Notes under the pieces: generated by a model
Databases searched by the model: none
Seen by the model: only the letters and a program-made list of their open reading frames with translations
What the model was told of the DNA's origin: nothing
In this document: positions 588 to 11,635 of the stretch, one piece after another
How the letters are laid out: each line of letters begins with the position of its first letter
Numbering within the stretch: position 1 is the first letter of the stretch
NCBI GenBank assembly: GCA_947624465.1
Contig: CANQKJ010000043.1
Location: 1-11,635, forward strand
Source: an uncultured Oscillospiraceae bacterium
Lineage (GTDB): Bacteria; Bacillota; Clostridia; Oscillospirales; Oscillospiraceae
Direction of reading: 5' to 3'
DNA length: 11,635 bases
Made by a program: the position numbers and the translations under genes

Positions 588-2135
588 CTACTCCTCTTTT
601 TTGAAAAGGCGCTTGATCCAGGCTTTTAGTATGCGCAGCGGCTTGGTGATGCGCCATGACAAGGACCGCTCCCTGTCGTGCAGTTGTTCTTCCAACTGTG
701 CGACCCTCTTTTTCAGTTGATTGACCTGGCGGTCGTCTACCAGAACGATATTATCGATTCCAGAATCCTGTACCACCTTTTGCAATTCTTCAGGCCGGTT
801 TTTAATCTGCTCTGTCAGCGCAGACTGAAAGATACCCTTCAGCGTAGCTGTTTCGCCTTTGAGCGCAATATTCTCGTTTCTTAACTTAACAATATCATCT
901 CGATCTGGATACGCTTTCCTTTTAATTCTTGTCCCACAGAACATCAAATTTACATTCTCAACAATATCTATCAAACTGGTGTTGCGATAATCTTTATACG
1001 TAGATAACTGGGCCGCTTTATTCCCCCACTCAACTAAATAATCATAGATATATGGCTTCACGTACTGTTCAACTGAAGTTTCTTCCGTCTCATAGCAAAT
1101 TCCTGTTTTATCCAAATAGTCTCGCCAGCATATTGTCGGTCCCATAAAATAAACACTGCTGTCTCCGGGAAGCGTTGCAGGTAAAAAATTAAAATAAGCA
1201 TCGACCAAATAGCAATTTCTAATCTTCATCTGAACGGCCAAAAAGGTACTGAAATGCGGTTCAAAAGCACGTCGAAGAATGGTTACTCTGGTATTCGGTC
1301 TACAGAACTGAGAGAGATAAATCAATCCGCCCTCACTGGCAACAATCTCGTTCGCCCCAGCAACAATTGATATTTGCTCCGAAAACGGTAACTGCTCTGG
1401 ATAGATAATCTCAAAGCCTCTTTTGCGATAAAAATCCTCAAAATACTGTTCGTTATATGTCAACTCGTCCGCTTTCAGCATGGATCTGGATAAATAGACC
1501 TTTTTATAAGGGCCCGCCTCTATTCTGGAACTTGCAAAAGCGTAAATTTTCTCAGCGCCCGGCCTGTAACCGGATAGCATATGATAGGCTTCTTCCGGTA
1601 CTATGATCTTGTCAAATCTTGTGGGGGTGCGGATAATCTCAAATCTATCTTTTGGTAGGCCGATTGCCTCCAAAATTCCGTAGTGCTTAAATCCGCCAAA
1701 CGCCGGACTGTCTAAAAAGATAAATTTGTATGGAGTCTCTGGGTTATCCGCAAACCACCATAATCTGCTTAAGCTTTCGGTAATCAAATGAGAAAACGCA
1801 CCGTACAGCACACCACCAAACACAACTGTCTCATGACGATGCTGCAAATCATTTGGGATTTCATATGCCACTGTGCAGGAAAGATTCGCTGTTGGTTTAC
1901 CTACCTTTCGATTAAGACCAGCTACAAAAGTCCCACTATTATCGCATATACCACCTTTAAAAGCGGCATTTCTGGTAGAAATATCGGTACGTTTTATCAT
2001 GGGCAAAACTACGCCATCCTCTACTTCAATTACCTTTGGCGCGGAATAAATGCAGTAATCCTTGCTCATGACCTTTTTCCAATACTTCTGATCATATACA
2101 AAAAGTCTGTTGTCGAGGTTGTCCAAGATTGCCAT
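588..2135 (-). CDS. GT61 (DUF563)-like glycosyltransferase with C-terminal coiled coil
   Basis: 515 residues, full length. The central part fits the GT61/DUF563 pattern: a conserved segment with SHLITESLSRLWWF (115-128), KVYLSR (212-217) and the C-terminal domain signature ASEGGLIYLSQFCRP (266-280) followed by TRVTIL. From about 415 on the protein becomes charged and helical, with a likely coiled coil at 475-500 (QLKKRVAQLEEQL). It ends in the SWRITKPLR motif and a basic tail, as seen at the C-termini of many cytosolic surface-polysaccharide transferases. No signal peptide or membrane segment is seen. ATG at 2135 follows GTGAGG by seven bases. The gene is visibly richer in A and T than the dehydrogenase next to it, which suggests separate acquisition in a mosaic locus. 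Sugar donor and acceptor cannot be read from the sequence. Confidence 0.78.
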   Translation of the reverse strand: MAILDNLDNRLFVYDQKYWKKVMSKDYCIYSAPKVIEVEDGVVLPMIKRTDISTRNAAFKGGICDNSGTFVAGLNRKVGKPTANLSCTVAYEIPNDLQHRHETVVFGGVLYGAFSHLITESLSRLWWFADNPETPYKFIFLDSPAFGGFKHYGILEAIGLPKDRFEIIRTPTRFDKIIVPEEAYHMLSGYRPGAEKIYAFASSRIEAGPYKKVYLSRSMLKADELTYNEQYFEDFYRKRGFEIIYPEQLPFSEQISIVAGANEIVASEGGLIYLSQFCRPNTRVTILRRAFEPHFSTFLAVQMKIRNCYLVDAYFNFLPATLPGDSSVYFMGPTICWRDYLDKTGICYETEETSVEQYVKPYIYDYLVEWGNKAAQLSTYKDYRNTSLIDIVENVNLMFCGTRIKRKAYPDRDDIVKLRNENIALKGETATLKGIFQSALTEQIKNRPEELQKVVQDSGIDNIVLVDDRQVNQLKKRVAQLEEQLHDRERSLSWRITKPLRILKAWIKRLFKKEE

Positions 2136-2156: not shown

Positions 2157-3194
2157 TTACGGTTCGCAACACAACAGGTACCGCCCCCCGCCGCCCCTTG
2201 CTGTTTCAAACACTTCCGCTGCTCTTTCCATGGGATAAATCCCGTGGACTATCCCAGGCACCAGTTTCAGCCTGCCGGAAGCCATATACTCCACCGCCAT
2301 GCGCCACTCCTCACCGGGAAACGGCGCGGAGTAGGACATCCAGCTCCCCGTCAACCAGCACTCCTTGCGGTTGATGTTCTCCCAAAGGCGCACCGGGAAC
2401 GTCAGCTCCTTTTTCGGCGTCCCCACGTAGCACACCGTGCCCTTCTTCGCCACAGCTTGCAAAGCCAGCGCCATAGTCTGCCCGCTACCGGAGCACTCGA
2501 ACACGCAGTCATAACCGCGGCTGTTCAACGTCTGAAGAAGTTCAGCTTCTGAGATCTTCTCTGTGCTGAATACGGCGTCAGCCCCGGCGGCCTCCGCCGC
2601 CTGTAAGCCGGTCTCGCCCCGCCCGATGGCGGTCACGCTCTCCGCCCCCAGCAGGTTCGCCCACTGGATGGCATACAGCCCGATGATCCCGCACCCCAGT
2701 ACAGCCATTCGCCTGCCCTGTCCGTATTTCGCCAGCCGCAAAGCGTGAAGTGATACAGTCGCCGGTTCGATGGTGGCCGCCTGTTCAAAAGAAACTTCGT
2801 TTGGAAGAACTACGATGTTCCTCGCCGGCACTACCACATACTCCGCCATAGCCCCCTGCCGCCGTGAGCCGATGAAGTTGTAGTGGCCGCACAAAGAGTA
2901 GTCGCCCCGCTTGCAGTCGGGGCACTCATGGCAGGGCACCAGCGGGGCAGCCGTCACGCGCATACCCGGCTCGATCCCCTCCACTCCGATACCTGTCCTG
3001 TCCACCGTCCCGGAAAACTCATGGCCCAAAATGACAGGGTAGCTGTGGGCGGCGTGATCAAACACTCTGGGGATATCTGAGCCGCAGATGCCGCACACCG
3101 CCACCTTGACGCGGACCTCTCCCGGCCCCGGTTCCGGCGCAGGCACCTCCTTATATGCGATCTTCTCATTGTCCTCTATGACGACCGCCTTCAT
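2157..3194 (-). CDS. Zinc-dependent polyol-phosphate dehydrogenase, GatD-like (galactitol-1-phosphate 5-dehydrogenase type)
   Basis: Medium-chain dehydrogenase of 345 residues. Catalytic zinc ligands are C37 (in GICGSD) and H58-E59 (in GHEFSG), with E143 in the usual later position. The structural zinc loop is complete: C88, C91, C94, C102. The nucleotide-binding motif is GCGIIG (167-172). A C-terminal segment with SWMSYSAPFPGEEW is typical of galactitol-1-phosphate dehydrogenases. GatD interconverts galactitol-1-phosphate and tagatose-6-phosphate with NAD(H). The adjacent cytidylyltransferase recalls TarJ/TarI, where a dehydrogenase reduces a keto-sugar phosphate to a polyol phosphate that is then CDP-activated, so I infer that it works as a reductase here. 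ATG at 3194 follows AAGGAG by five bases, eleven bases after the upstream stop. Ribulose-5-phosphate or another ketose phosphate remains possible as substrate. Confidence 0.85.
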   Translation of the reverse strand: MKAVVIEDNEKIAYKEVPAPEPGPGEVRVKVAVCGICGSDIPRVFDHAAHSYPVILGHEFSGTVDRTGIGVEGIEPGMRVTAAPLVPCHECPDCKRGDYSLCGHYNFIGSRRQGAMAEYVVVPARNIVVLPNEVSFEQAATIEPATVSLHALRLAKYGQGRRMAVLGCGIIGLYAIQWANLLGAESVTAIGRGETGLQAAEAAGADAVFSTEKISEAELLQTLNSRGYDCVFECSGSGQTMALALQAVAKKGTVCYVGTPKKELTFPVRLWENINRKECWLTGSWMSYSAPFPGEEWRMAVEYMASGRLKLVPGIVHGIYPMERAAEVFETARGGGGRYLLCCEP

Positions 3195-3205
3195 AACGGC
3201 TCCTT

Positions 3206-4537
3206 TCAGCGGACAAAGATTCCGCCTGTCACATAATTGTATTTCACCGCATAGTTATAGTCCTCGACCAGAGATACCACGCTGTCCTTCACCAGCTCCC
3301 GGGGGTCCATAGGCAGTTTTCTGTCCCGGACCTTGATATATTGGAGCGGCATGTACTGGTGCAGCATCCCCAAAGGAATGGCCACGCCAGATAAGTTGCG
3401 GAACAGCTTCTCAACAGCCTCGCTGATTTCCTCGTCTGCCAAATAATAACGGCATCGGTCAGAAAAGCTGTATTTTCGGTCCAGGCTCTTCTCAAAGTCG
3501 CTGCCGCAATAGTATCTTTCCCAACTCTTGGGGGCACGCAGCATATGCTGCTCCAGCAGCTCAACGAAATTGGCCCGGGCGCCCGGATTCGGAATCAACT
3601 CCTCCTCGATGCGGGACAAGGCGAACAGCGCCTCCCGCAGGGCAAAGGTAAGGGCGGGCCCCACCTTGATGATGGCGATGCCGTCCTCCACCATCTCCCG
3701 CAGCTTGGCCGGAGACTGATAGTCGGTGGAGTGGCCCTCAAACACGATGTTGGGATATTTTCTCAGCTTTTGACATAGGTCGTGGGCGCGGAATCTGTCG
3801 TAATGACAGATCTCCCTGTTCCCAAACTCCACCCCCGGCTGGACCACCATGGCGATGATGTGTACCCAGGCGTCGGACAACCCCAGTCGGGCAAATTTCT
3901 GATGATAGGCCAGTAGGACCTGCTCAAATCGCTCCGGCGTGGTGACCTCAACGGTATCCTCTGCCCCCTGTGCCCCGCCGGGGACCGGCACCTCGCTTCC
4001 GATCACATAGACCGGATGGATTGCGGATGGGTCCGCCTTTAGAACATTCTGGAACTCCTCTTCACAGATGCGGTAGAGGACCGCTCCCCGCTCCGCAATG
4101 ACAGCGTCGTCCATCGGTCGGTCCGTGGGGTCGTCTCCCAGGTGCATACTGGTATCCAAGTGAATCTTCTGGTATCCGGCCCGCACACAGTCCCGCACCA
4201 GGATCTCTGCCTGTTCCATTGCCTCCGCCGCAGGAAGATCCGCCCAAGGCAGCGGCCCCATATGGTCCCCTCCGATGATGATCTTCTCGTGGGAAAAATG
4301 GATCTTGTCCGCAATCTCATAGACAAAATCCCGAAACTCAAATGGGGTCATCCCCGTATAGCCGCGGTTCTGATTCACCTGGTTGGATGTCGCCTCAATG
4401 AGGACCGTGTCGTCGAAGCGTTTTGCCTGGTCCAGGATTGCCTCAATCACCAGCTTATTGGCGCAACAGAAGGAGGGGATGCCGCAGTGGATGCCCGCTT
4501 TGCGCTTTTCCACCATATCCAGCAAGGGATTCTTCAT
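3206..4537 (-). CDS. GatZ/KbaZ-like protein (tagatose-bisphosphate aldolase non-catalytic subunit family; possible sugar-phosphate 4-epimerase)
   Basis: 443 residues, close to the family's usual 420-430. Family motifs are clear: IPSFCCANKLVIEA near the N-terminus, EATSNQVNQ (48-56), GYTGMTP (59-65), GGDHMGP (89-95) and HLDTSMHLGDDP just after. GatZ and KbaZ were described as partners of the GatY/KbaY class II aldolases, but no such aldolase gene is in this window. Some family members have been reported to epimerise C4 of fructose-6-phosphate, giving tagatose-6-phosphate. That activity would feed the GatD-like enzyme directly, and I infer it as the likelier role here. ATG at 4537 follows GAGAGG by nine bases, fourteen bases after the cytidylyltransferase stop. 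The family call is firm; the reaction is open. Confidence 0.85.
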   Translation of the reverse strand: MKNPLLDMVEKRKAGIHCGIPSFCCANKLVIEAILDQAKRFDDTVLIEATSNQVNQNRGYTGMTPFEFRDFVYEIADKIHFSHEKIIIGGDHMGPLPWADLPAAEAMEQAEILVRDCVRAGYQKIHLDTSMHLGDDPTDRPMDDAVIAERGAVLYRICEEEFQNVLKADPSAIHPVYVIGSEVPVPGGAQGAEDTVEVTTPERFEQVLLAYHQKFARLGLSDAWVHIIAMVVQPGVEFGNREICHYDRFRAHDLCQKLRKYPNIVFEGHSTDYQSPAKLREMVEDGIAIIKVGPALTFALREALFALSRIEEELIPNPGARANFVELLEQHMLRAPKSWERYYCGSDFEKSLDRKYSFSDRCRYYLADEEISEAVEKLFRNLSGVAIPLGMLHQYMPLQYIKVRDRKLPMDPRELVKDSVVSLVEDYNYAVKYNYVTGGIFVR

Positions 4538-4551
4538 ATCTCTGGGCCTCT

Positions 4552-5259
4552 CTATTCCTCAAAAAAGTATGTGTGCGCCAAAAGGCGGAACAGCCTCAGA
4601 TCCTCCGGGTAGGTAATTTTCAGGTTCAGCACCTTGGCCGGGATAACCTTCATCGGAATGTCGTGCGCCAGGGCGATGGCCCCGGCGGAACTCATTCGAT
4701 CAAACTCCTCGTCTGCGGCGCCGAAGTAGATGCGGCTGATGTCCCCAAAGCGGAAAGCCTCCGGAGACGCACCGGACACCAGTTCCTGCCGGGGCACGAC
4801 CTCCTCAATCTGGCGCTCTCCATCCATGCGGTAGCAGGTGTCGTACTGGCAGGCACCCAGGGTAGCGCCTCCCACTTCTTCCACCGCGCGGATGACCTCC
4901 CGGGTCCCCGCCACGTCGACATAAGGGTGGGTGGCATCATGGATCAGGACCACGTCGCGCTCCGCCGCGATATCCTCCACCGCCTTCAGGCCGTTCCGCA
5001 CCGAGGCGGAGCGGCTGCTCCCTCCGGCCGCCAGCCGGACTGGGCAACGAAAGGTGATATCCGAAATGGAGGTCCTCACAAAGTCCAGCCAGTTCGGATG
5101 GGACACGATGCAGATGGCGCCAAGCTCGGACATTTTGGCGTATTTTCGGACGATGTACCAGAAGATGGGCCGTCCGTCTATGTCGATGTACTGCTTGGGG
5201 ATCTCTGCGCCCAAGCGGGTGCCGCTGCCGCCCATCATCAAAAGAAGGATGTTACTCAT
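4552..5259 (-). CDS. IspD/TarI-like cytidylyltransferase, probably for a polyol phosphate
   Basis: 235 residues, the normal IspD/TarI size. It has the nucleotide-binding loop GGSGTRLGAEIPKQY (10-24), AGGSSRSASVRNGL (78-91), IHDATHP (106-112), SPEAF (165-169) and K214 in NLKITYPEDL. These fit transfer of CMP from CTP to an alcohol phosphate. Two positions depart from housekeeping IspD: the usual HDA-x-RP reads HDATHP, replacing the Arg, and the usual TPQ-x-F reads SPEAF. With a TagF-type transferase on one side and a sugar-phosphate enzyme plus dehydrogenase on the other, a CDP-polyol is a better guess than the isoprenoid pathway. Its ATG overlaps the stop of the upstream TagF-like gene by four bases (ATGA), so translation is coupled. 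The substrate is inferred only. Confidence 0.85.
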   Translation of the reverse strand: MSNILLLMMGGSGTRLGAEIPKQYIDIDGRPIFWYIVRKYAKMSELGAICIVSHPNWLDFVRTSISDITFRCPVRLAAGGSSRSASVRNGLKAVEDIAAERDVVLIHDATHPYVDVAGTREVIRAVEEVGGATLGACQYDTCYRMDGERQIEEVVPRQELVSGASPEAFRFGDISRIYFGAADEEFDRMSSAGAIALAHDIPMKVIPAKVLNLKITYPEDLRLFRLLAHTYFFEE

Positions 5260-6533
5260 CCCGCATCACCTATGATCTCTTTCAGTTTCTCCACCACACG
5301 CTCCGCCGCGTGGCCATCATCAATACAGCCCTTATCCCGAATAAACGTCTCGCATTTTTTCTGATACTCCGCCAAGTCAAAGTTTAAAATATTGCGGACC
5401 ATCTCAGCATTTGTACACGCCAGCGGGAAGGGCATAGATTCCAGTGGATAATAAAAGCCTCTCTCCGTGTAATAGTGGCGATAGTCCATGGCGAACAGGA
5501 AGCCCGGTTTTTTAGTCAGAACATAATCGCAGATCCAACTGGAATAGTCCGTGATTCCAACATCTGTTACCAACAGGAGATCCTGAATATCCGGGTAGTT
5601 GGTAACATCGATCACAAATTCAGGGAATTTGATTTTCTTTTTTTTCACAAGTTTTCTCAGTTGAAAATGGAACCGAACCAAAATGCTCCACTTCCCGCCA
5701 AACTTTTCCGTCAATGCCTCACAGAGCGCGTTATAGTCAAGCTTGTATGGCGACAGGTCATCGCCGTCCCGGAACGTCGGCGCATACAAAGCTACATGGC
5801 GATTTTTCGGAATCCCGCATGACTCTCGGACCTTTCTCTCCAGCACGGCAACCCGCTCAGTGTCCGATGTAAGCAGAATATCATTTCTGGCGTGGCCAAA
5901 ATCCAAAATATTAGAAGTACCCCAAAATGTATTTTGGAACAGCTCACGCTCAAAAGTGCTGTTGGAAATACAGTAATCTGTTCTTTCCCCGCACTCCTTT
6001 GCCTTTTTCAGCCACTGTTTATCGCTAGTAGTCTCGATGCGCTTAATCCCGAGGGAACCGTGCCATGTCTCAATCAGCACCTGCCCCGTTTTTTTCCAGG
6101 TATTCAGATAGGACAGGCTTGTGGAGTTATCGATCCAAACCTTTGACCTTGCCGCTTCCCGGTAAAACTCATATGAGCCGCGGAGCACCAGTTTCAGTTT
6201 GCTCGGGTACTCCTCCATCCGCTTGATGTTCTCCTTTCTCGCTACCCACACTAGATCCCAAGGGAGCTTCTGACGTATGATCTCATCAGCAATCGCCCTT
6301 GGATTGCAGTTATACCCGCCCCTCGTCGTCATAAACAGAATTTTGTTAGAAACGACCATCTCCTGTTTAGCCTGCTTGCGAATTGCCCATCTAGCCAAAG
6401 CAGTATCGATTTTCTTGAACAGTTTTTTGCGATAAGTTCCGTTAAAGCAGCTGAAAAAGCATTCTTTCAGCTTTTTATATGTTTTTTCTAACAAGTTTCC
6501 TTCAATAATCGCTTTTTTGATCTTCTCTATCAT
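5256..6533 (-). CDS. CDP-glycerol glycerophosphotransferase family protein (TagF/TagB-like polyol-phosphate transferase)
   Basis: 425 residues from the chosen start. It matches the teichoic-acid polymerase/primase fold in order: KILFMTTRGGYNCNPRAIA (64-82), VWIDNST (132-138), IETWHGSLGIKR (154-165), FGHARND (212-218), YAPTFRDG (250-257), and ITDYSSWICDY (327-337). The His of WHG, the His of FGHARND and the TDYSS motif are the family's conserved active-site elements. The protein would move a polyol phosphate from a CDP donor to a membrane-bound or oligosaccharide acceptor at the cytoplasmic face. The basic amphipathic N-terminus (about residues 1-60) may bind membrane. I chose ATG 6533, with GGAGAG eight bases upstream and twenty bases after the LicD stop. 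An in-frame ATG at 6638 would overlap LicD by 85 bases and adds no conserved sequence. The donor could be CDP-glycerol or the hexitol made by the next three genes. Confidence 0.85.
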   Translation of the reverse strand: MIEKIKKAIIEGNLLEKTYKKLKECFFSCFNGTYRKKLFKKIDTALARWAIRKQAKQEMVVSNKILFMTTRGGYNCNPRAIADEIIRQKLPWDLVWVARKENIKRMEEYPSKLKLVLRGSYEFYREAARSKVWIDNSTSLSYLNTWKKTGQVLIETWHGSLGIKRIETTSDKQWLKKAKECGERTDYCISNSTFERELFQNTFWGTSNILDFGHARNDILLTSDTERVAVLERKVRESCGIPKNRHVALYAPTFRDGDDLSPYKLDYNALCEALTEKFGGKWSILVRFHFQLRKLVKKKKIKFPEFVIDVTNYPDIQDLLLVTDVGITDYSSWICDYVLTKKPGFLFAMDYRHYYTERGFYYPLESMPFPLACTNAEMVRNILNFDLAEYQKKCETFIRDKGCIDDGHAAERVVEKLKEIIGDAG

Positions 6534-6553
6534 ATAGGTATCTCTCCGGCTCT

Positions 6554-7318
6554 CTATCCTTTGTGTTTTGTATTTCGGTCCGATTCCTGTGGCGGAATCA
6601 TATAGTATCCATACAGCTGTCTCAAATACCCATCCCATTTGGTGGGTGCGGAAAACCGTTCTCCCTCAAAATCCAGGAAAACCGTATCGCTAAACCAGCT
6701 CTTTGGATAGAATTCCACGGTCCCCTTATGTCCCCCGCCGGGGGAAAGGAAAAAGCCTTCGTCCTTCGCAGTCAGGCACTTGATAACGTCTCTCCGCAGG
6801 TTTCTCAGCCGCTGTTTTGTGAACCTATCCAAGATCCAATACCCTAGCCGGGCCGCATTTTGCTTGTATGGGATGTAGCCCATCCACCCGCACTTAACTT
6901 GCAGTACATAATTCATGACGCTGATTATGTCAAACAGAAAGCCTGTCCATTTCGTCGGCCTGCGGGACGGGGCGATAGGAAAGATGTCTATGTAGATCCC
7001 TCTCGGGCCGTTCCTGTTTTGGGTGGTAAACGGTTTTCTGGTATCACACAGTTTTGCAAAAAAGAAAGGATAATTCTCATCTGTGAACTCCGTCTGAATG
7101 GTCAATCCCACTGGAAGCTCCGAGCCCAGTTCTAAAAATTGTTCGTAGTCCTCCACTGGCATCATTACGTCCACATCATCGTCCCAAGGGATAAACCCCC
7201 GATGGCGAATCGCCCCCAGCAAAGTGCCGCCCGCCAGATAATAGCAAAGGTTGTGTCTTTCACAAAATGCCGAAAAAGATTTCAGCAAATCAAACAACTG
7301 TGTTTGTTCGCTTGTCAT
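6554..7318 (-). CDS. LicD-family phosphotransferase
   Basis: 254 residues. The LicD nucleotidyltransferase-fold signature is textbook: AGGTLLGAIRHRGFIPWDDDVDVMM (29-53), with the metal-binding acidic cluster D46-D48 and D50. A later IYIDIFPIAP segment and the C-terminal YLRQLYGYYMIPP are also typical. LicD proteins attach phosphocholine or other phospho-alcohols from CDP donors to surface glycans. No choline kinase or LicC-type gene is visible here, and the only cytidylyltransferase in the operon is the TarI-like one, so this enzyme may use the same CDP-polyol. Its first 29 bases overlap the end of the GT4 gene. No strong ribosome site precedes the ATG (GTTGGGA is the best), so it probably relies on coupling. 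Confidence 0.88.
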   Translation of the reverse strand: MTSEQTQLFDLLKSFSAFCERHNLCYYLAGGTLLGAIRHRGFIPWDDDVDVMMPVEDYEQFLELGSELPVGLTIQTEFTDENYPFFFAKLCDTRKPFTTQNRNGPRGIYIDIFPIAPSRRPTKWTGFLFDIISVMNYVLQVKCGWMGYIPYKQNAARLGYWILDRFTKQRLRNLRRDVIKCLTAKDEGFFLSPGGGHKGTVEFYPKSWFSDTVFLDFEGERFSAPTKWDGYLRQLYGYYMIPPQESDRNTKHKG

Positions 7319-8432
7319 GGCAGTCCCAACTTTCGGTTTTAAAGTACCGTTCTATTTGCTTGGTCGTGTGAGAAATATCAAAACCAGCATCTTTTACCGC
7401 CTCGGCACCGTCTACACGAGCGCCTTGCGATCCAATCAACTGCTCCACCCATGCGGCGGGACCCGCTGCCAAAGGGATACTGCAAACACTTTGTGTGATA
7501 TATACTTCCTCAGGTACATATTCTGAACAGACCACCGGCAGCCCCGCCGCCTGGGCCTCCAACGCGGCGATGCCCAGTCCTTCAAACAGGCTGGGGAACG
7601 CAAACACATCCATGGCCCACAGCAGGCGCTCCACATGGTCGGTCGTGCCATAAAAAATCACCTTGTCAGCGATTCCAATCTTCTGTGCCTTGGTCCTCAG
7701 TTTTTCTTTCTCCGGGCCGTTGCCCACCAGCAATAGGCAACACTTAGGAATCTCTTTTTGAAGTTCTGCAAATACATCCAGCAAAAAACTTTGGTTCTTT
7801 TCGTAGCACAAACGGCCCACATTGCCGACCAGAAATCGATCCTCCACTTTCAATTCCGTACGGACAACTTTGCGAATCACGGGGTCAAAACAGAACCGCT
7901 CCACGTCGATGCCATTAGGAATGAACTGATATCCTTGTTCTTTCAGCACTTGTCCGTCAAACAAAAACTTTGCCGCGCTTTGAGAGCAAGCCCACAAATC
8001 AGTTGCGTCCGCCGTATATCGCTTCTGGCCCCAATAATGAATCGCAAGCTTCAAGGAGCGTGTCAGGCTCTTTCTCAGGCCAGCGCCATGTGCGTGGGCA
8101 AAGCGAGATGTGATTCCCTCCTGTTGTGCTATGTGGAGATACGCCAGGGACAGGCCATGAAACGCATTCAGATGAAGCACATCCCAATGGCGTTCCCGCG
8201 CCAGTTTACGAAACCGCCGGTGATTCTCCGGGATGTTTCGCTGGCTGCCCGAAAGCTCAAAAAAACACACGCCATGTTCTTGAAGCTGTTTTGTGAAGAT
8301 GCTGTCCCCAAGACTGGCGGTAACGACGTCTACCTCAAGCCGGGTCAGGTCCAGTCGTGTCAGCACATTGCAGAGGAAGGACTCGATGCCGCCGGATTCC
8401 CAACGCTCTACAAAACAGCAGACACGTTTCAC
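7290..8432 (-). CDS. GT4-family glycosyltransferase (group 1, GT-B fold)
   Basis: 380 residues from a GTG start. The N-terminal Rossmann domain carries ESGGIESFL (12-20), the acceptor-side glycine loop, and FAHAHGAG follows at 111-118. The C-terminal donor domain has IPNGID (171-176), VGNVGRLCYEKNQ (202-214), LLLVGNGPEKEKL (233-245) and FEGLGIAALE (283-292), whose E284 and E292 form the EX7E motif. This is an intracellular retaining transferase, probably adding an early sugar to the lipid-linked unit. The GTG at 8432 overlaps the TGA of the recombinase-like gene (GTGA) and is preceded by a GGGGTGGGAG stretch. An open frame continues upstream to 8717, but its translation is low-complexity shadow of the recombinase gene. 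The coupling to the recombinase-like gene shows that the latter is the operon's first cistron. Confidence 0.88.
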   Translation of the reverse strand: MKRVCCFVERWESGGIESFLCNVLTRLDLTRLEVDVVTASLGDSIFTKQLQEHGVCFFELSGSQRNIPENHRRFRKLARERHWDVLHLNAFHGLSLAYLHIAQQEGITSRFAHAHGAGLRKSLTRSLKLAIHYWGQKRYTADATDLWACSQSAAKFLFDGQVLKEQGYQFIPNGIDVERFCFDPVIRKVVRTELKVEDRFLVGNVGRLCYEKNQSFLLDVFAELQKEIPKCCLLLVGNGPEKEKLRTKAQKIGIADKVIFYGTTDHVERLLWAMDVFAFPSLFEGLGIAALEAQAAGLPVVCSEYVPEEVYITQSVCSIPLAAGPAAWVEQLIGSQGARVDGAEAVKDAGFDISHTTKQIERYFKTESWDCHDKRTNTVV

Positions 8433-9280
8433 ATCTCCCACCCCACGAGGAACTGCTCCTCCTCGATCTGCCGGTCCATGGTCTGCTCCATCAGCACCTG
8501 CATACTGGACTGGATGCCATCCCAGGTGGTCAGATACAGCCTCCGCAGCGCCCGCGGGTTGCCCTTCTCCTCCGGTATCTGCGCCGCCCGGCACAGCTTC
8601 GAGATGAGTACCGTGATATAGCTGCGGTGCAGGGGTCCGCCCCGCTCGTTGCGGAACACCGGGCCGTCCTTGATTCCCTGCCGCTCCGCGAAAGCCAGCA
8701 CTTCCCGCGCCAGGCACGCCGGGAGATGCACCATCCGGCGGGCGCCCTGGAAGGTGACCACGAACTTGCCGGCCTCGACATCCTTCACTGTCATCTCAGA
8801 CAGCTCGTTGAGCCGCAGGCCGGTGCAGGCGATGGTCTTGACCAGCAGATATAACCGCTCGTCCTCCAACGTCTTGGCTGTGGTCAGCAGCCGCAGGTAT
8901 TCGCCCCGGCTCAATTCCGGCTGGAGCTTCCCATCTTTGGCCATGCGCTCGGCCAACTGATACTCCCGGCAGTCCATGAAGGAAAGAAAACTATCGTAGG
9001 CAGCAAGGAACACATTCACGGTGGCATTGGAATAGCCGCCCTCCAGCAGTTCGTCCTTCCACTCAGCCAGGGTGCCCCGGCGGATGGTCTTGTCCTCCGG
9101 CAGCGCCTGGTACAGCAGTTCCAGGGCATAGCGGTATTTGTTCAGCGTCTCAGCAGAGCGGCCCTTCGCCTCCCACTCCGCTAGGAACCGCTCGGCGTCG
9201 GCCCACTCCATCACAAATCCGCCTTCCGGCCGGAGGGCGATGATATCCGCTTGCTTCTTTTGTTTCACAGTAGCCGGCAT
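8429..9280 (-). CDS. Degenerate tyrosine-recombinase-like protein, probably not catalytic; first gene of the polymer operon
   Basis: 283 residues with a two-domain tyrosine-recombinase layout: a SAM-like core-binding domain (about 27-105) and a catalytic-type domain from about 120. Box I keeps its Arg (R156 in ACTGLRLNEL). The rest has eroded. The strand that should carry the catalytic Lys reads TFQGARRMVHLP. The HxxRH box reads NPRALRRLY, so the first His is R243 and the second is R247, while R246 is kept. The LGH box and the nucleophilic Tyr are absent from the shortened C-terminus, where no tyrosine follows box II apart from Y249. Domain order and the LSRGEYLRLL segment show kinship with the intact recombinase encoded next door (LSREEYLRLI). 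ATG 9280 follows GGAGGG by five bases. I infer a DNA-binding or accessory role, for example in orienting the switch. Confidence 0.75.
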   Translation of the reverse strand: MPATVKQKKQADIIALRPEGGFVMEWADAERFLAEWEAKGRSAETLNKYRYALELLYQALPEDKTIRRGTLAEWKDELLEGGYSNATVNVFLAAYDSFLSFMDCREYQLAERMAKDGKLQPELSRGEYLRLLTTAKTLEDERLYLLVKTIACTGLRLNELSEMTVKDVEAGKFVVTFQGARRMVHLPACLAREVLAFAERQGIKDGPVFRNERGGPLHRSYITVLISKLCRAAQIPEEKGNPRALRRLYLTTWDGIQSSMQVLMEQTMDRQIEEEQFLVGWEM

Positions 9281-9340
9281 AATGGCCCTCCTTTGCAGAC
9301 CGTAATAGCTCTTACAGTGCCGCAAGGGAGCGTCTTAGAC

Positions 9341-9350
9341 CTTGTATGAG
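9341..9350 (+). repeat. Inverted repeat, operon-proximal arm of the switch
   Basis: CTTGTATGAG, a perfect inverted match to 9560-9569. Just inside it, GAAAAGCGGCA resembles GAAAAAGCCGCA inside the other arm, so the similarity probably extends imperfectly beyond the core. Confidence 0.75.
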
Positions 9351-9364
9351 ACGAAAAGCGGCAT

Positions 9365-9394
9365 AAAAAATCCCTCCGTGGGCTTCACGGAGGG
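9365..9394 (-). terminator. Intrinsic terminator between recombinase gene and polymer operon
   Basis: A perfect 9-bp GC-rich stem (CCCTCCGTG 9372-9380 with CACGGAGGG 9386-9394) with a 5-base loop is followed on the minus strand by six T residues (9370-9365). It would end the recombinase transcript and stop read-through into the operon. It lies inside the invertible segment, so its direction would change with inversion. Confidence 0.85.
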
Positions 9395-9414
9395 GGAAAC
9401 GGGCGCGAAAAGTC

Positions 9415-9444
9415 GGGCTGTCAAAACACAAATATTGACAGCCC
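9415..9444. other. Perfect 10-bp stem-loop inside the switch
   Basis: GGGCTGTCAA (9415-9424) pairs perfectly with TTGACAGCCC (9435-9444) across a 10-base loop. No good T-run follows on either strand, so it is not a clear terminator. It could be a protein-binding palindrome in DNA, or an RNA element just upstream of the terminator on the minus-strand transcript. Confidence 0.6.
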
Positions 9445-9499
9445 TGTTTCTGATGCGCAAAAAACCGGTTTTTCTGGGTTTGATGTACCTTTTTGGCAC

Positions 9500-9528
9500 T
9501 TGCAAAAGTGCAAATGGTGTGTTATTAT
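9500..9528 (+). promoter_or_regulatory. Promoter inside the invertible segment, currently pointing away from the operon
   Basis: The -35 box TTGCAA (9500-9505) and -10 box TATTAT (9523-9528) are separated by exactly 17 bases, with four of six and five of six consensus matches. The predicted start near 9535 is about 25 bases inside the right-hand repeat. In the present orientation the transcript would run into the 3' end of the recombinase gene as antisense. In the inverted state it would read into the gene at 9280. A small palindrome, GCACTT-GCAA-AAGTGC (9496-9511), overlaps the -35 box and could be an operator. Confidence 0.65.
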
Positions 9529-9559
9529 GTCTCAAGGATTGCGGCTTTTTCTGCGCTGC

Positions 9560-9569
9560 CTCATACAAG
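9560..9569 (-). repeat. Inverted repeat, recombinase-proximal arm of the switch
   Basis: CTCATACAAG on the plus strand, the exact inverse of 9341-9350. It continues outward as AGCTATT, and that continuation is also matched in inverted form at 9304-9313, on the far side of the other arm. Confidence 0.75.
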
Positions 9570-9590
9570 AGCTATTCTGTTTTCTTTTTC

Positions 9591-10454
9591 CTAACTGACC
9601 AGCCCCAGCCGCTCCATCTGCCGGACGTGCTCCACCCCGGTGGAGATCAGGTAGATCCGCGTGGTTGAAATGTTGCTGTGCCCCAGAATGTCCGCCAGCT
9701 TCACCACATCCTGGTAGCGCCGGTAGTATTCCCGGGCGAACAGATGCCGCAGATTGTGGGGGAACACCTTGGTGGGTTCCACCCCCGCCGCTTCGCACAC
9801 CGACTTCATCTCCGCCCAGATCTGCCGTCTGCTCATGCCCATCCCGCCCCGGCCCAGGAATACCTGGCCGGCGGCGATTTTTTGTTTTCGGGCGTATTTC
9901 AGCAGCTTCCGGCACAGCTTCCCCGGCAGTAATATCGTTCTGATCTTCCCCTTCAGGGAGATGACCGCCCGACCGCTCCGGGCCGCCTCCACGGTGATAT
10001 ACCGGGTCTCGGACACCCGGATGCCGGTGGCGCAGATGGTCTCCATCACCAGGGCCAGCCGCTCGTTCCCCCGCCTCCGGGCGGCGTCGATGAGCCGCAG
10101 ATACTCCTCCCGTGACAGATCCCGGCTGGTATCCCGGAACATCCGGCGTTGGACCTGGAGGAGCTTCACCTTGCAGTCTGTTCGGCCCAGGAAGGTGAAC
10201 AGAGCGTTGACCGCCGCCAGCTTGAGATTGACGGTGGAGGTACTCAAATCCCCTCCGGCCAGCAGCGCCTCCTTCCACGACACCGCTGCGGACTTAGAGA
10301 CCGGATTGCCGTCCAAAAAGGCGGCGAACTCCCGGACGTAGTTCAGGTACTTCTCCACGGTGCTATCCGCCCGCTCCAGAAGGCGCAGATGGCGCTCAAA
10401 GGCGGTCAGCAGTGCCGGTGTGAGCTTGGGTGACGCGATTTCAGTTTTCCTCAT
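9591..10454 (-). CDS. Tyrosine recombinase/integrase with full catalytic set; candidate invertase of the adjacent switch
   Basis: 287 residues. An N-terminal SAM-like core-binding domain (about 12-92) is followed by the catalytic domain. All catalytic positions are visible: R146 (CATGIRVSE), Lys in SLKGK (K168 or K170), H233 and R236 in PHNLRH, H259 in LGHSNISTT, and nucleophile Y268 in TTRIYL. The size fits XerC/D-like and phase-variation recombinases rather than large phage integrases, because the N-terminal arm-binding domain is missing. ATG 10454 is chosen because GGAGGGG sits six bases upstream; the TTG at 10469 overlaps that site. The stop at 9591 lies about 20 bases from one inverted repeat of the putative invertible segment. 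Action on the 9341-9569 switch is inferred from position and from known clostridial and Bacteroides systems; other target sites elsewhere are possible. Confidence 0.88.
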   Translation of the reverse strand: MRKTEIASPKLTPALLTAFERHLRLLERADSTVEKYLNYVREFAAFLDGNPVSKSAAVSWKEALLAGGDLSTSTVNLKLAAVNALFTFLGRTDCKVKLLQVQRRMFRDTSRDLSREEYLRLIDAARRRGNERLALVMETICATGIRVSETRYITVEAARSGRAVISLKGKIRTILLPGKLCRKLLKYARKQKIAAGQVFLGRGGMGMSRRQIWAEMKSVCEAAGVEPTKVFPHNLRHLFAREYYRRYQDVVKLADILGHSNISTTRIYLISTGVEHVRQMERLGLVS

Positions 10455-10472: not shown

Positions 10473-10497
10473 GTAAAATGATGCTGATATTTTACCA
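10473..10497 (-). promoter_or_regulatory. Candidate extended -10 promoter and operator for the recombinase gene
   Basis: On the minus strand TGGTAAAAT (10497-10489) is an extended -10 element with five of six matches; the -35 region is poor. The predicted start near 10482 leaves a leader of about 28 bases before ATG 10454. A 7-bp inverted repeat, GTAAAAT (10473-10479) and ATTTTAC (10489-10495), spans the -10 box and the start point, the right place for a repressor or for autoregulation. Confidence 0.35.
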
Positions 10498-10655
10498 TTG
10501 AAGAGAAAGAATCATGCGGATGGGCTTCTGAACTGCCTTTTTTAAAAACGAAGTTTATTGACCTCTTTTGAAAAGGCACTACTGGCCGCCACATACAAAG
10601 GCACAAAATGCAGTATCTTATCGAAAAGTCTTTTACATATATTGTGGTTTTCCTC

Positions 10656-10684
10656 TTGACAGTTTGACTGGTATATGCTACCAT
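10656..10684 (+). promoter_or_regulatory. Strong promoter for the structured RNA
   Basis: A perfect -35 TTGACA (10656-10661), a 17-base spacer, and -10 TACCAT (10679-10684, four of six). Predicted transcription start is near 10691. It diverges from the recombinase gene. The 10498-10655 stretch between them is AT-rich, and I see no gene in it. Confidence 0.65.
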
Positions 10685-10690
10685 TTCATC

Positions 10691-11007
10691 GTTGATTGAT
10701 TGCTTGTGCGTACTTCGCTGAAATCGCGGAGCCGGGTCCATTGGACCTGGGACCGGGGGGCACCCGCATTGCATACGTTGTTAAGGTTGTACGTTATGCC
10801 GGAACGGCCGCTATAAGAGATTGCGGCGTTTACTGGCAGGAGCTTGTAGGGGGCAGTATACCCTTTTGAGGGTAGATTGCCCGTTGTTGAATGCTTATCA
10901 CAGCCCATCGGGCTGAAAAGTGAAGAATGCCTGCACTCATTGAGAGTGCGAAAAGTTTGTTGACGTTGATGTTTTGACGACTTTTCGCACTCTCTTTTTG
11001 CGTTTTT
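10691..11007 (+). ncRNA. Structured non-coding RNA of about 300 nt with its own promoter and terminator
   Basis: No plausible reading frame lies on the plus strand, but dense local pairing does: 10713-10718 with 10726-10731 (loop TGAAATC); GGTCC-ATT-GGACC at 10735-10747; 10797-10802 with 10833-10838 enclosing a bulged hairpin at 10803-10830 (GCCGC/GCGGC); a two-part hairpin at 10851-10882 (GGGCAGT/ATTGCCC outside, TACCC/GGGTA inside); and CAGCCC-ATC-GGGCTG at 10901-10915. Competing pairings around 10771-10799 suggest a pseudoknot or switching. A consensus promoter lies directly upstream and a strong terminator closes it. It is not 6S (no single long rod), and the key motifs of RNase P and SRP RNA are absent, as is a tmRNA end. 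Size and compactness are compatible with the clostridial raiA-type RNA family, but I cannot confirm a match from memory. Confidence 0.6.
10942..11007 (+). terminator. Intrinsic terminator of the structured RNA, 15-bp perfect stem
   Basis: The stem from 10942-10956 (GAGAGTGCGAAAAGT) pairs without mismatch with 10980-10994. It is followed by TTTTTGCGTTTTT (10995-11007). Direction is plus, in line with the promoter at 10656. Confidence 0.88.
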
Positions 11008-11288
11008 GAAGGTGTTTCCGCTCATCGGGAGCAGCCAGCGGTCTTGCCAGCCGCCGGCCAGGGAAACGGATGCCGACAAACAGTCGATCAGCATATGACC
11101 CTCCCCGCTTTGAGGTTTGCGGGGGCCCAGGGATGATAACCTCGGAGGCCGCCGGCAAACGGTCTCACCTCTCACCGCTCCGGCGCTGCGCCGGTCCGGC
11201 AGCGTGAGAGTTCGCGTACCCCGATCCTGGCCGGAGGGATCACAGAACACTCGCGGCCCGCGCTGCAACGCGCCGGCTGAATATGACT
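11008..11288. other. GC-rich gene-free stretch with strong hairpins
   Basis: No convincing gene on either strand. Two hairpins stand out: CCCCGC (11103-11108) with GCGGGG (11119-11124) around a 10-base loop, and a bulged structure at 11171-11208 with CCGGCG-CTG-CGCCGG at its tip and CTCA/TGAG plus CGCT/AGCG at its base. The base composition contrasts with the AT-rich promoter region to the left. It may be a leader or regulatory region of the element that carries the excisionase gene, or a second structured RNA; I see no clear promoter for the latter. Confidence 0.4.
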
Positions 11289-11384
11289 ATGAAAACAAGG
11301 AGAAAGCTTTATCGTATGAATTCTGACATCAAAAACAGGAGCGCATACATTGCCTCTGCTGGGAGGTATCACTTTGGAGACTAA
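11289..11384 (+). CDS. Possible short leader peptide overlapping the excisionase start
   Basis: A 31-codon frame (ATG 11289, TAA 11382) ends inside the first codons of the excisionase gene, so coupling is conceivable. A second in-frame ATG at 11316 follows AAGGAG by 13 bases, which is long. The peptide is basic and matches nothing I recognise. It may be chance. Confidence 0.2.
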   Translation: MKTRRKLYRMNSDIKNRSAYIASAGRYHFGD

Positions 11385-11635
11385 GTATCGTTCCTTCGAC
11401 GACCTGCCCCTCGCCCTTCGGGTAGAGGACCTCATGCCTATCCTCGGCATCGGCAGGAACACCGCCTATGAGCTGGTGCGGTCCGGGCAGATCAGAAGTA
11501 TCAAAATCGGAAGGCAGATCCGTGTCCCAAAAGACGCTTTAGCAGATGGGAGGCCCGCTATACCACGGGCTTCGACCCTGCGACCGGCAAACAAATCCAA
11601 AAATCCATTTACGGCAAGACCCAAAAAGAGGTTCG
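11374..11635 (+). CDS. Tn916-type excisionase (Xis), 3' end replaced; frame still open at window edge
   Basis: The TTG start at 11374 has GGGAGG seven bases upstream. Residues 17-56 form a small winged-helix/MerR-like DNA-binding domain of the excisionase class: VEDLMPILGIGRNTAYELVRSG, then IRSIKIGRQIRVPKDAL. Xis proteins of this type bind near the ends of integrative elements, bend DNA and direct excision by the integrase. After L56 (about 11541) the similarity stops abruptly. The frame then continues, out of phase, through integrase sequence to the window edge. Family members are usually about 65-75 residues, so only the extreme C-terminus is missing, but the long foreign tail may spoil the protein. 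The window edge hides the true stop. Confidence 0.7.
   Translation, partial: METKYRSFDDLPLALRVEDLMPILGIGRNTAYELVRSGQIRSIKIGRQIRVPKDALADGRPAIPRASTLRPANKSKNPFTARPKKRF
11544..11635 (+). pseudogene. Tn916-family integrase fragment lacking its start, out of frame with Xis
   Basis: In the frame beginning at 11544 the translation reads RWEARYTTGFDPATGKQ, then IQKSIYGKTQKEV to the edge. This is the N-terminal arm-binding domain of Tn916-type integrases. No start codon or ribosome site precedes it; upstream, the same frame is merely Xis DNA read out of phase. Normally int begins downstream of the xis stop with its own start and about 15-20 residues before this point. The rest of the gene may continue beyond the window. 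A sequencing or assembly error could also produce this, so the pseudogene call is moderate. Confidence 0.6.

Follow-up and report, generated by a model that had tools for sequence, protein, structure and literature searches.

Mpi acts at the invertible promoters of Bacteroides capsule loci. As far as the available part of a study of invertons reports, UpxY is found near invertons in the capsule loci of these bacteria, and a Clostridia inverton group (139) goes with invertase group 35, 32 of 33 being in the class Clostridia, with a tyrosine-type recombinase or integrase nearby (PMC11892184); a link between Clostridia invertons and a neighbouring tyrosine-type recombinase is thus already published. 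In Clostridioides difficile, according to the portion of the report consulted, inversion at cwpV gives the OFF transcript an intrinsic terminator ahead of a surface gene, and a separate recombinase can catalyse this inversion (PMC2784873), so that terminator-based inversion is already published as well. Among the titles and abstract beginnings of the open-licence literature, we found no dead recombinase in phase variation, none as the first target gene of a switch, and no switch with both a promoter and a terminator inside the invertible segment.

Organization of the locus

We analysed a stretch of 11,635 nucleotides from an uncultured Oscillospiraceae bacterium (hereafter called the window). 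Its minus strand carries, in this order, the gene for an active-type tyrosine recombinase (ACT, 9594..10454), a 310-bp gap, the gene for a catalytically dead recombinase homologue (DEAD, 8432..9280) and a polymer operon of which DEAD is the first gene. The gap holds the repeat, the promoter and the terminator singled out in a preliminary description of this DNA. Both recombinase-type genes and the operon genes have open reading frames.

ACT (287 aa; Pfam Phage_integrase, 4.3e-23) has its nearest solved sequences among Xer-type proteins and harbours the complete catalytic set of an active tyrosine recombinase (R, K, H-x-x-R, H/W and Y), namely R146, K170, H233, R236, H259 and Y268. The genes that follow DEAD, all on the minus strand, overlap or lie at most ~21 bases apart. 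They encode a GT4 glycosyltransferase (7290..8420) and a LicD-family protein (6554..7318), both from domain matches, a TarF-like protein of the CDP-glycerol glycerophosphotransferase family (5256..6638, domain and profile match), an IspD-type cytidylyltransferase (4552..5259) with a further, sub-threshold match to a D-ribitol-5-phosphate cytidylyltransferase model, a GatZ/KbaZ-like protein (3206..4537), a dehydrogenase of the zinc-type alcohol dehydrogenase family (2157..3194), whose nearest model, galactitol-1-phosphate dehydrogenase, is also matched below cut-off, a GT61-type glycosyltransferase (588..2135) and an NDP-hexose 2,3-dehydratase family protein truncated at the contig end (3..584). 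This is a predicted teichoic-acid-like surface-polymer operon.

An Rfam scan of the window gave two matches, both far under the gathering scores. On the plus strand, a hairpin with perfect 15-bp arms followed by a T run (10938-11003; -27.9 kcal/mol, z -6.3) sits in an extended region where no gene is convincing, and an excisionase-type helix-turn-helix protein is encoded at the contig end (11350-11634), which suggests an integrative element beside the switch. A comparison of positions 10480-11635 with plasmids gave no match.

A family of predicted phase switches

The locus belongs to a family of invertible switches with 215 recombinase loci, which we counted as ACT loci for which no less than 330 nt were available from a point 20 nt ahead of the stop codon, with one copy per genome label; the 130 genomes are such labels, doubly named assemblies having been merged, perhaps not all of them. 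Because the motif by which the ACT genes were selected includes H, R, H/W and Y, only the counts of the first Arg (266 of 266) and of the Lys (257 of 266) are independent of that selection.

As predicted from these loci, the phase-switch family spans the Oscillospiraceae and some neighbours. The 80 DEAD loci retained out of 159 in species genomes come mostly from Oscillospiraceae or its genera, with some from Lachnospiraceae-type bacteria, and among 400 genomes of the window's family, with at most six candidates scored per genome, the DEAD profile has at least 50 matches below 1e-60, spread over 31 genomes. Three layouts recur: ACT and DEAD separated by ~300 bp, ACT followed after ~300 bp by a large protein and then DEAD, and fused tandem DEADs. 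Cultured relatives that carry ACT together with DEAD include Flavonifractor sp. An10 (L106) and Anaerotruncus sp. G3 (L068). In six loci (L048, L051, L054, L060, L080 and L101), the protein between the switch and DEAD has 967-1,393 aa and a signal-peptide-like start, and, as judged by eye, it is probably secreted; the reverse strand of these six genes is open over most of their length.

An inverted repeat better than 95% of cross-locus controls was found in 48 of 82 distinct regions after ACT (82 of 90 regions entered this control). The consensus recombination site is ACARAAT-NNNN-ATTYTGT, with the majority sequence ACAGAAT-CAAC-ATTTTGT, as derived from a matrix of 156 loci chosen for good repeats. 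At each of core positions 7-12 the two arms agree in 99-100% of these loci, and at outer positions in 71-96%, values that are partly due to construction since the loci were picked for their repeats. When 200 of the 215 loci were taken without such selection, 185 of these 200, all having a left site, showed a right partner with an identical core, versus 19 of 200 in the cross-locus control. Extra repeat copies occur in two loci, with two right arms in L045 and two left arms in L085; they could allow alternative inversions.

Recombination sites in the window

The perfect 10-bp inverted repeats on which the preliminary description was built do exist: CTTGTATGAG lies at 9341-9350 (+) and its exact inverse at 9560-9569, and with their flanks they make a 15-nt arm pair at 87% identity. 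Such a match is unlikely to be random, as had been argued, because dinucleotide shuffling of the 190-nt right part yields that 10-mer at a frequency of 1e-4, and a 10-mer from anywhere in the 21-nt left site at 5.5e-4. We also found a second perfect 10-bp inverted match, AATAGCTCTT (9304-9313 vs 9567-9576), which overlaps the same left site and whose core match occurs in 5e-5 of shuffles.

The family rule picks a pair of sites at this second match. The left site, ACAGAAT-AGCT-CTTGTAT (9563..9580, minus strand, core 9569-9574), lies 10 nt past the ACT stop codon, close behind it as in the family, and ranks first among the 23,236 18-mers of the window when scored with the site matrix from 156 other loci. 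The right site, CCGTAAT-AGCT-CTTACAG (9300..9317, plus strand, core 9306-9311), is the inverted partner that shares its core, at a distance of a few hundred bp and 23 nt from the DEAD ATG; at the threshold used, 9306-9311/9569-9574 is the only core-identical pair. These sites bound a segment of ~260 bp (9312..9568), predicted to be invertible from the family site rule and from inverted homologous segments, and lying here in the OFF orientation. Good half-sites on both arms, a further family feature, are lacking here: those of the right site are degenerate, and its score of -3.7 is the third lowest of 185, only three of which, window included, fall below -2.

The role of CTTGTATGAG as the recombination site did not hold up. 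Aligned in register with the left site, its right arm carries two mismatches in the 6-bp core, and it lies 60 nt from the first ATG, versus 23 nt for the partner at 9300-9317. The corresponding distance is 16-39 nt in 22 of 24 other family loci with DEAD as first gene (126 and 144 nt in the other two; six more such loci gave no start). This arm is best described as repeating the left site's inner half at a displaced position, ~30 bp inward of the right core. The core followed by GTATGAG within 54 nt was obtained in 0 of 20,000 shuffles, and on the right these two blocks, contiguous in the left site, lie 30 bp from each other. The right site thus reads as damaged or weakened. Since it is the third worst of 185 and holds the pieces of the left site 30 bp apart, the copy in the window may flip slowly or be stuck in the OFF state.

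Coupling of promoter and terminator

A promoter with TG before its second hexamer was found at 9500..9528 on the plus strand (TTGCAA at 9500-9505, 17 nt, TATTAT at 9523-9528), pointing away from the operon as previously noticed. The strong terminator described as facing the operon is also there (9394-9372, minus strand; folding energy -18.4 kcal/mol, z -4.9), and it could stop read-through from the ACT gene. Positions 9200-9700 hold two promoter-like sites versus 0.4 expected, and terminator-like sites number two versus 0.7 expected.

A clear one-way promoter is present in 151 of the 182 loci with a repeat. In an earlier set, from which 56 segments were kept, an outward promoter reached a score of 9.5 or more in 35, versus 10% of shuffles. 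Classified by promoter score, with thresholds set by the analyst, the 215 loci comprise 114 OFF, 37 ON, 31 unclear and 33 without a usable repeat, the window being OFF like most of those classified. The 151 classified loci yielded 139 non-redundant segments, in which terminators are antiparallel to the promoter in 50 cases and parallel in 6 (shuffled mean 1.05); the counts are 14 and 0 among the 34 ON segments, and 36 and 6 among the 105 OFF segments. Promoter and opposing terminator therefore travel together in about one third of the segments, as they do in the window, where the outward promoter lies near one arm; being detected in 50 of 139, the antiparallel terminator is common rather than universal. 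The homologues thus back the proposal that an invertible promoter, here in its OFF state, precedes a surface-polymer operon, and the "double lock", in which promoter and terminator swap roles together, is conserved.

Inversion in relatives

The preliminary description had called for a comparison of both orientations in related genomes. A complete genome in a single contig (G442) harbours two ACT-DEAD copies ~0.8 Mb apart (L179 and L180) whose segments have opposite orientations: the flanks are 100% (960 bp) and 99.6% (2,898 bp) identical, and the 252-bp segment is inverted at 99.2% identity. These opposite copies form a natural record of such segments inverting. At least four further homologous pairs are inverted at lower identity (L048/L051, L101/L102, L086/L098 and L095/L098). 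The repeat rule misses real switches, since the inverting G442 pair was classed as having no usable repeat, a classing made with nearly the same rule as that of the 215-locus count. A flipped copy of the window segment was not found, the window's own assembly showing one copy, and comparisons with relatives revealed no DNA near-identical to its switch.

Contig breaks were considered as a sign of mixed orientations and dropped, as contig ends show no significant excess within 100 bp (4 of 81 vs 0 of 80, P 0.06) or 400 bp (7 of 81 vs 3 of 80, P 0.17) after the recombinase; six more plus-strand matches, which have no matching control, end within 100 bp downstream. Strict mutual exclusion of ON loci within a genome was rejected, because 2 of 25 multi-locus genomes hold more than one ON locus, one of them having 4 of 10 ON (permutation P(<=2) 0.047). 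There is a weak hint of coordination between the switches of a genome, with clear exceptions.

A catalytically dead recombinase homologue heads the operon

DEAD (283 aa) is 34% identical to the ACT of the window over 216 aligned positions, and its C-terminal end differs, with the conserved tail EQ-x-DR-x-EQ-x-GW. It keeps both Arg residues of the catalytic set, and the Lys, the first His and the Tyr are absent; the H/W position is a Trp in one alignment and a gap in another. The single recombinase named at the outset does exist, intact and in full frame on the minus strand at 9594-10454 with its catalytic residues, but the locus has two recombinase-type genes and the second (8432-9280) is catalytically dead.

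A protein search collected 356 relatives of DEAD. The 120 of them listed lack the first catalytic His and the Tyr without exception, and the first Arg in 116 cases; close relatives (P0001-P0003), compared as proteins only, are 80-95% identical. In DEADs from the fetched loci, the His of HxxR, the H/W and the Tyr are missing in 141 of 141, the last two positions being gaps. Profile matches of DEAD to Xer-type structures span profile positions 24-253. In a midpoint-rooted FastTree phylogeny of 70 sampled from 80 non-redundant DEADs and 70 from 147 ACTs, the DEADs form a single clade with a support of 1.0. Residues E265, Q266, E275, Q276, G280 and W281 of the tail are invariant in 19 members. A frameshift was considered as the origin of this odd tail and rejected, because the tail is kept in 60 listed of 120 aligned homologues and in the 19 members. 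The one pair compared for selection, the window gene and that of locus L038, has a dN/dS of 0.08, which indicates purifying selection. The conserved tail, the single clade, the absent catalytic residues and this ratio together make DEAD look like a maintained family rather than a decaying one, and it is probably kept as a regulator.

The DEAD gene of L038 (9989-10844) is 92% identical to that of the window at the DNA level. The DNA in front of it differs from that of the window, with no site pair found and an integrase-like frame running on the opposite strand, and behind it comes a pair of ABC export genes; the dead gene may be transferred from one operon to another. In L063, L075, L079, L089, L095, L098 and L109, dead recombinase units occur two or three at a time as fusions or tandem arrays, the open frame of L109 having 749 codons, and an IMG/VR viral contig (L146) carries an ACT-DEAD pair.

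Where at least 6.5 kb of sequence precedes DEAD (54 loci), an ACT gene on its strand lies inside that distance in 43 cases. The remaining 11 lack both an ACT in this range and a site pair immediately ahead of DEAD, so that DEAD is not tied to a switch everywhere. ON and OFF states both occur with and without DEAD, and their shares do not clearly differ between loci where it was seen (20 ON, 48 OFF) and those where none was seen in the fetched range (17 ON, 66 OFF). DEAD is the first gene of many glycan operons: the 62 first non-DEAD genes downstream, hand-picked from a list of 89 (45 second genes were taken from a list of 74), include up to 12 nucleotidyl transferases, 9 ABC-2 exporters, 7 GT4-type and 4 GT2-type glycosyltransferases.

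Proposed mechanism and alternative readings

We consider it likely that the locus is a phase switch in which ACT flips the segment between the inverted sites, and promoter and terminator are coupled; we propose that DEAD biases or locks the switch. ACT would recombine the two short inverted sites and flip the ~260 bp between them, a role suggested by its adjacency and by the homologous inverted pairs. In the OFF state, the promoter would fire back toward the 3' end of the recombinase gene, and the terminator facing the operon would block read-through from ACT. A flip would point the promoter at the operon and the terminator in the opposite direction. DEAD would be turned on first, ahead of the teichoic-acid-like surface-polymer operon, and it would be made mainly in the ON state if no other promoter serves it. 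DEAD might then bind the same sites or the ACT protein and bias or lock the switch. DEAD is of recombinase descent and has retained most of the sequence that bears the fold, from which we infer that it regulates the switch by feedback. More generally, the clade of dead tyrosine recombinases may consist of feedback regulators of inversion switches, made mainly when ON, which keep the DNA-binding and subunit-contact parts and set how long the polymer stays ON; we put this forward tentatively.

DEAD could, instead of acting on the switch, regulate transcription of the polymer operon, as an antiterminator for instance, having descended from a recombinase and playing a part comparable to that of UpxY in Bacteroides capsule operons. 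This reading is conceivable, if short of probable: DEAD heads many glycan operons and 11 of 54 copies come without ACT or a site pair, but ACT is found upstream of the other 43. A further reading bears on the present state of the window copy, which might be a relic of a family switch, permanently or almost permanently OFF after decay of its right site. It overlaps with the phase-switch reading, denying only present function, and it has a substantial chance of being correct, somewhat below even. The near-bottom rank of the right site, the 30 bp that part blocks contiguous on the left, and the single orientation found in the assembly all fit a relic, but the open frames of both recombinase-type genes and of the operon, the low dN/dS of DEAD between the window genome and L038, and the retained identity of the core speak against it.

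A working switch that recombines at CTTGTATGAG itself is unlikely. A perfect 10-bp inverted match seen in 1e-4 of shuffles would favour crossover there, but the two mismatches fall in the six positions that are 99-100% identical between arms in the 156 good-repeat loci, and the distance to the ATG is 60 nt. That the repeats arose by chance beside an unrelated integrase, with a fixed promoter driving the operon, is very improbable: the shortness of the repeat would fit, but the family-wide rules for site, core, promoter and terminator are obeyed at this locus. A phase switch thus remains our preferred reading. The site motif, the promoter-terminator cassette and the dead recombinase in the switched operon define a searchable family in clostridial gut commensals, and they provide a concrete hypothesis, that pseudo-enzymes regulate phase variation.

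Comparison with known systems

FimB and FimE, the recombinases of the fimS switch of Escherichia coli, are both active. The fimS segment is of similar size (314 bp) and is likewise flipped by tyrosine recombinases, as far as the description consulted goes; in contrast, one of the two recombinase-type proteins of the window is dead and is encoded by a target gene of the switch. Inverton group 139 and invertase group 35 are possibly of the same kind as the switch of the window or overlap with it. They were compared by description, without the repeat motif, and the available part of that account mentions no dead recombinase and brings up terminators only as a suggestion for future work (PMC11892184). 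At cwpV, the promoter is located outside the inverted DNA in the portion of the report consulted (PMC2784873), whereas in the window promoter and terminator are both inside, the predicted promoter being at 9500-9528. The Bacteroides capsule loci share with the window an invertible promoter before a polysaccharide operon and a regulator gene close behind it, but the gene behind the promoter codes for an antiterminator in the former and for a dead recombinase in the latter. The C. difficile and Bacteroides systems are analogues of the window's switch, compared with it by layout.
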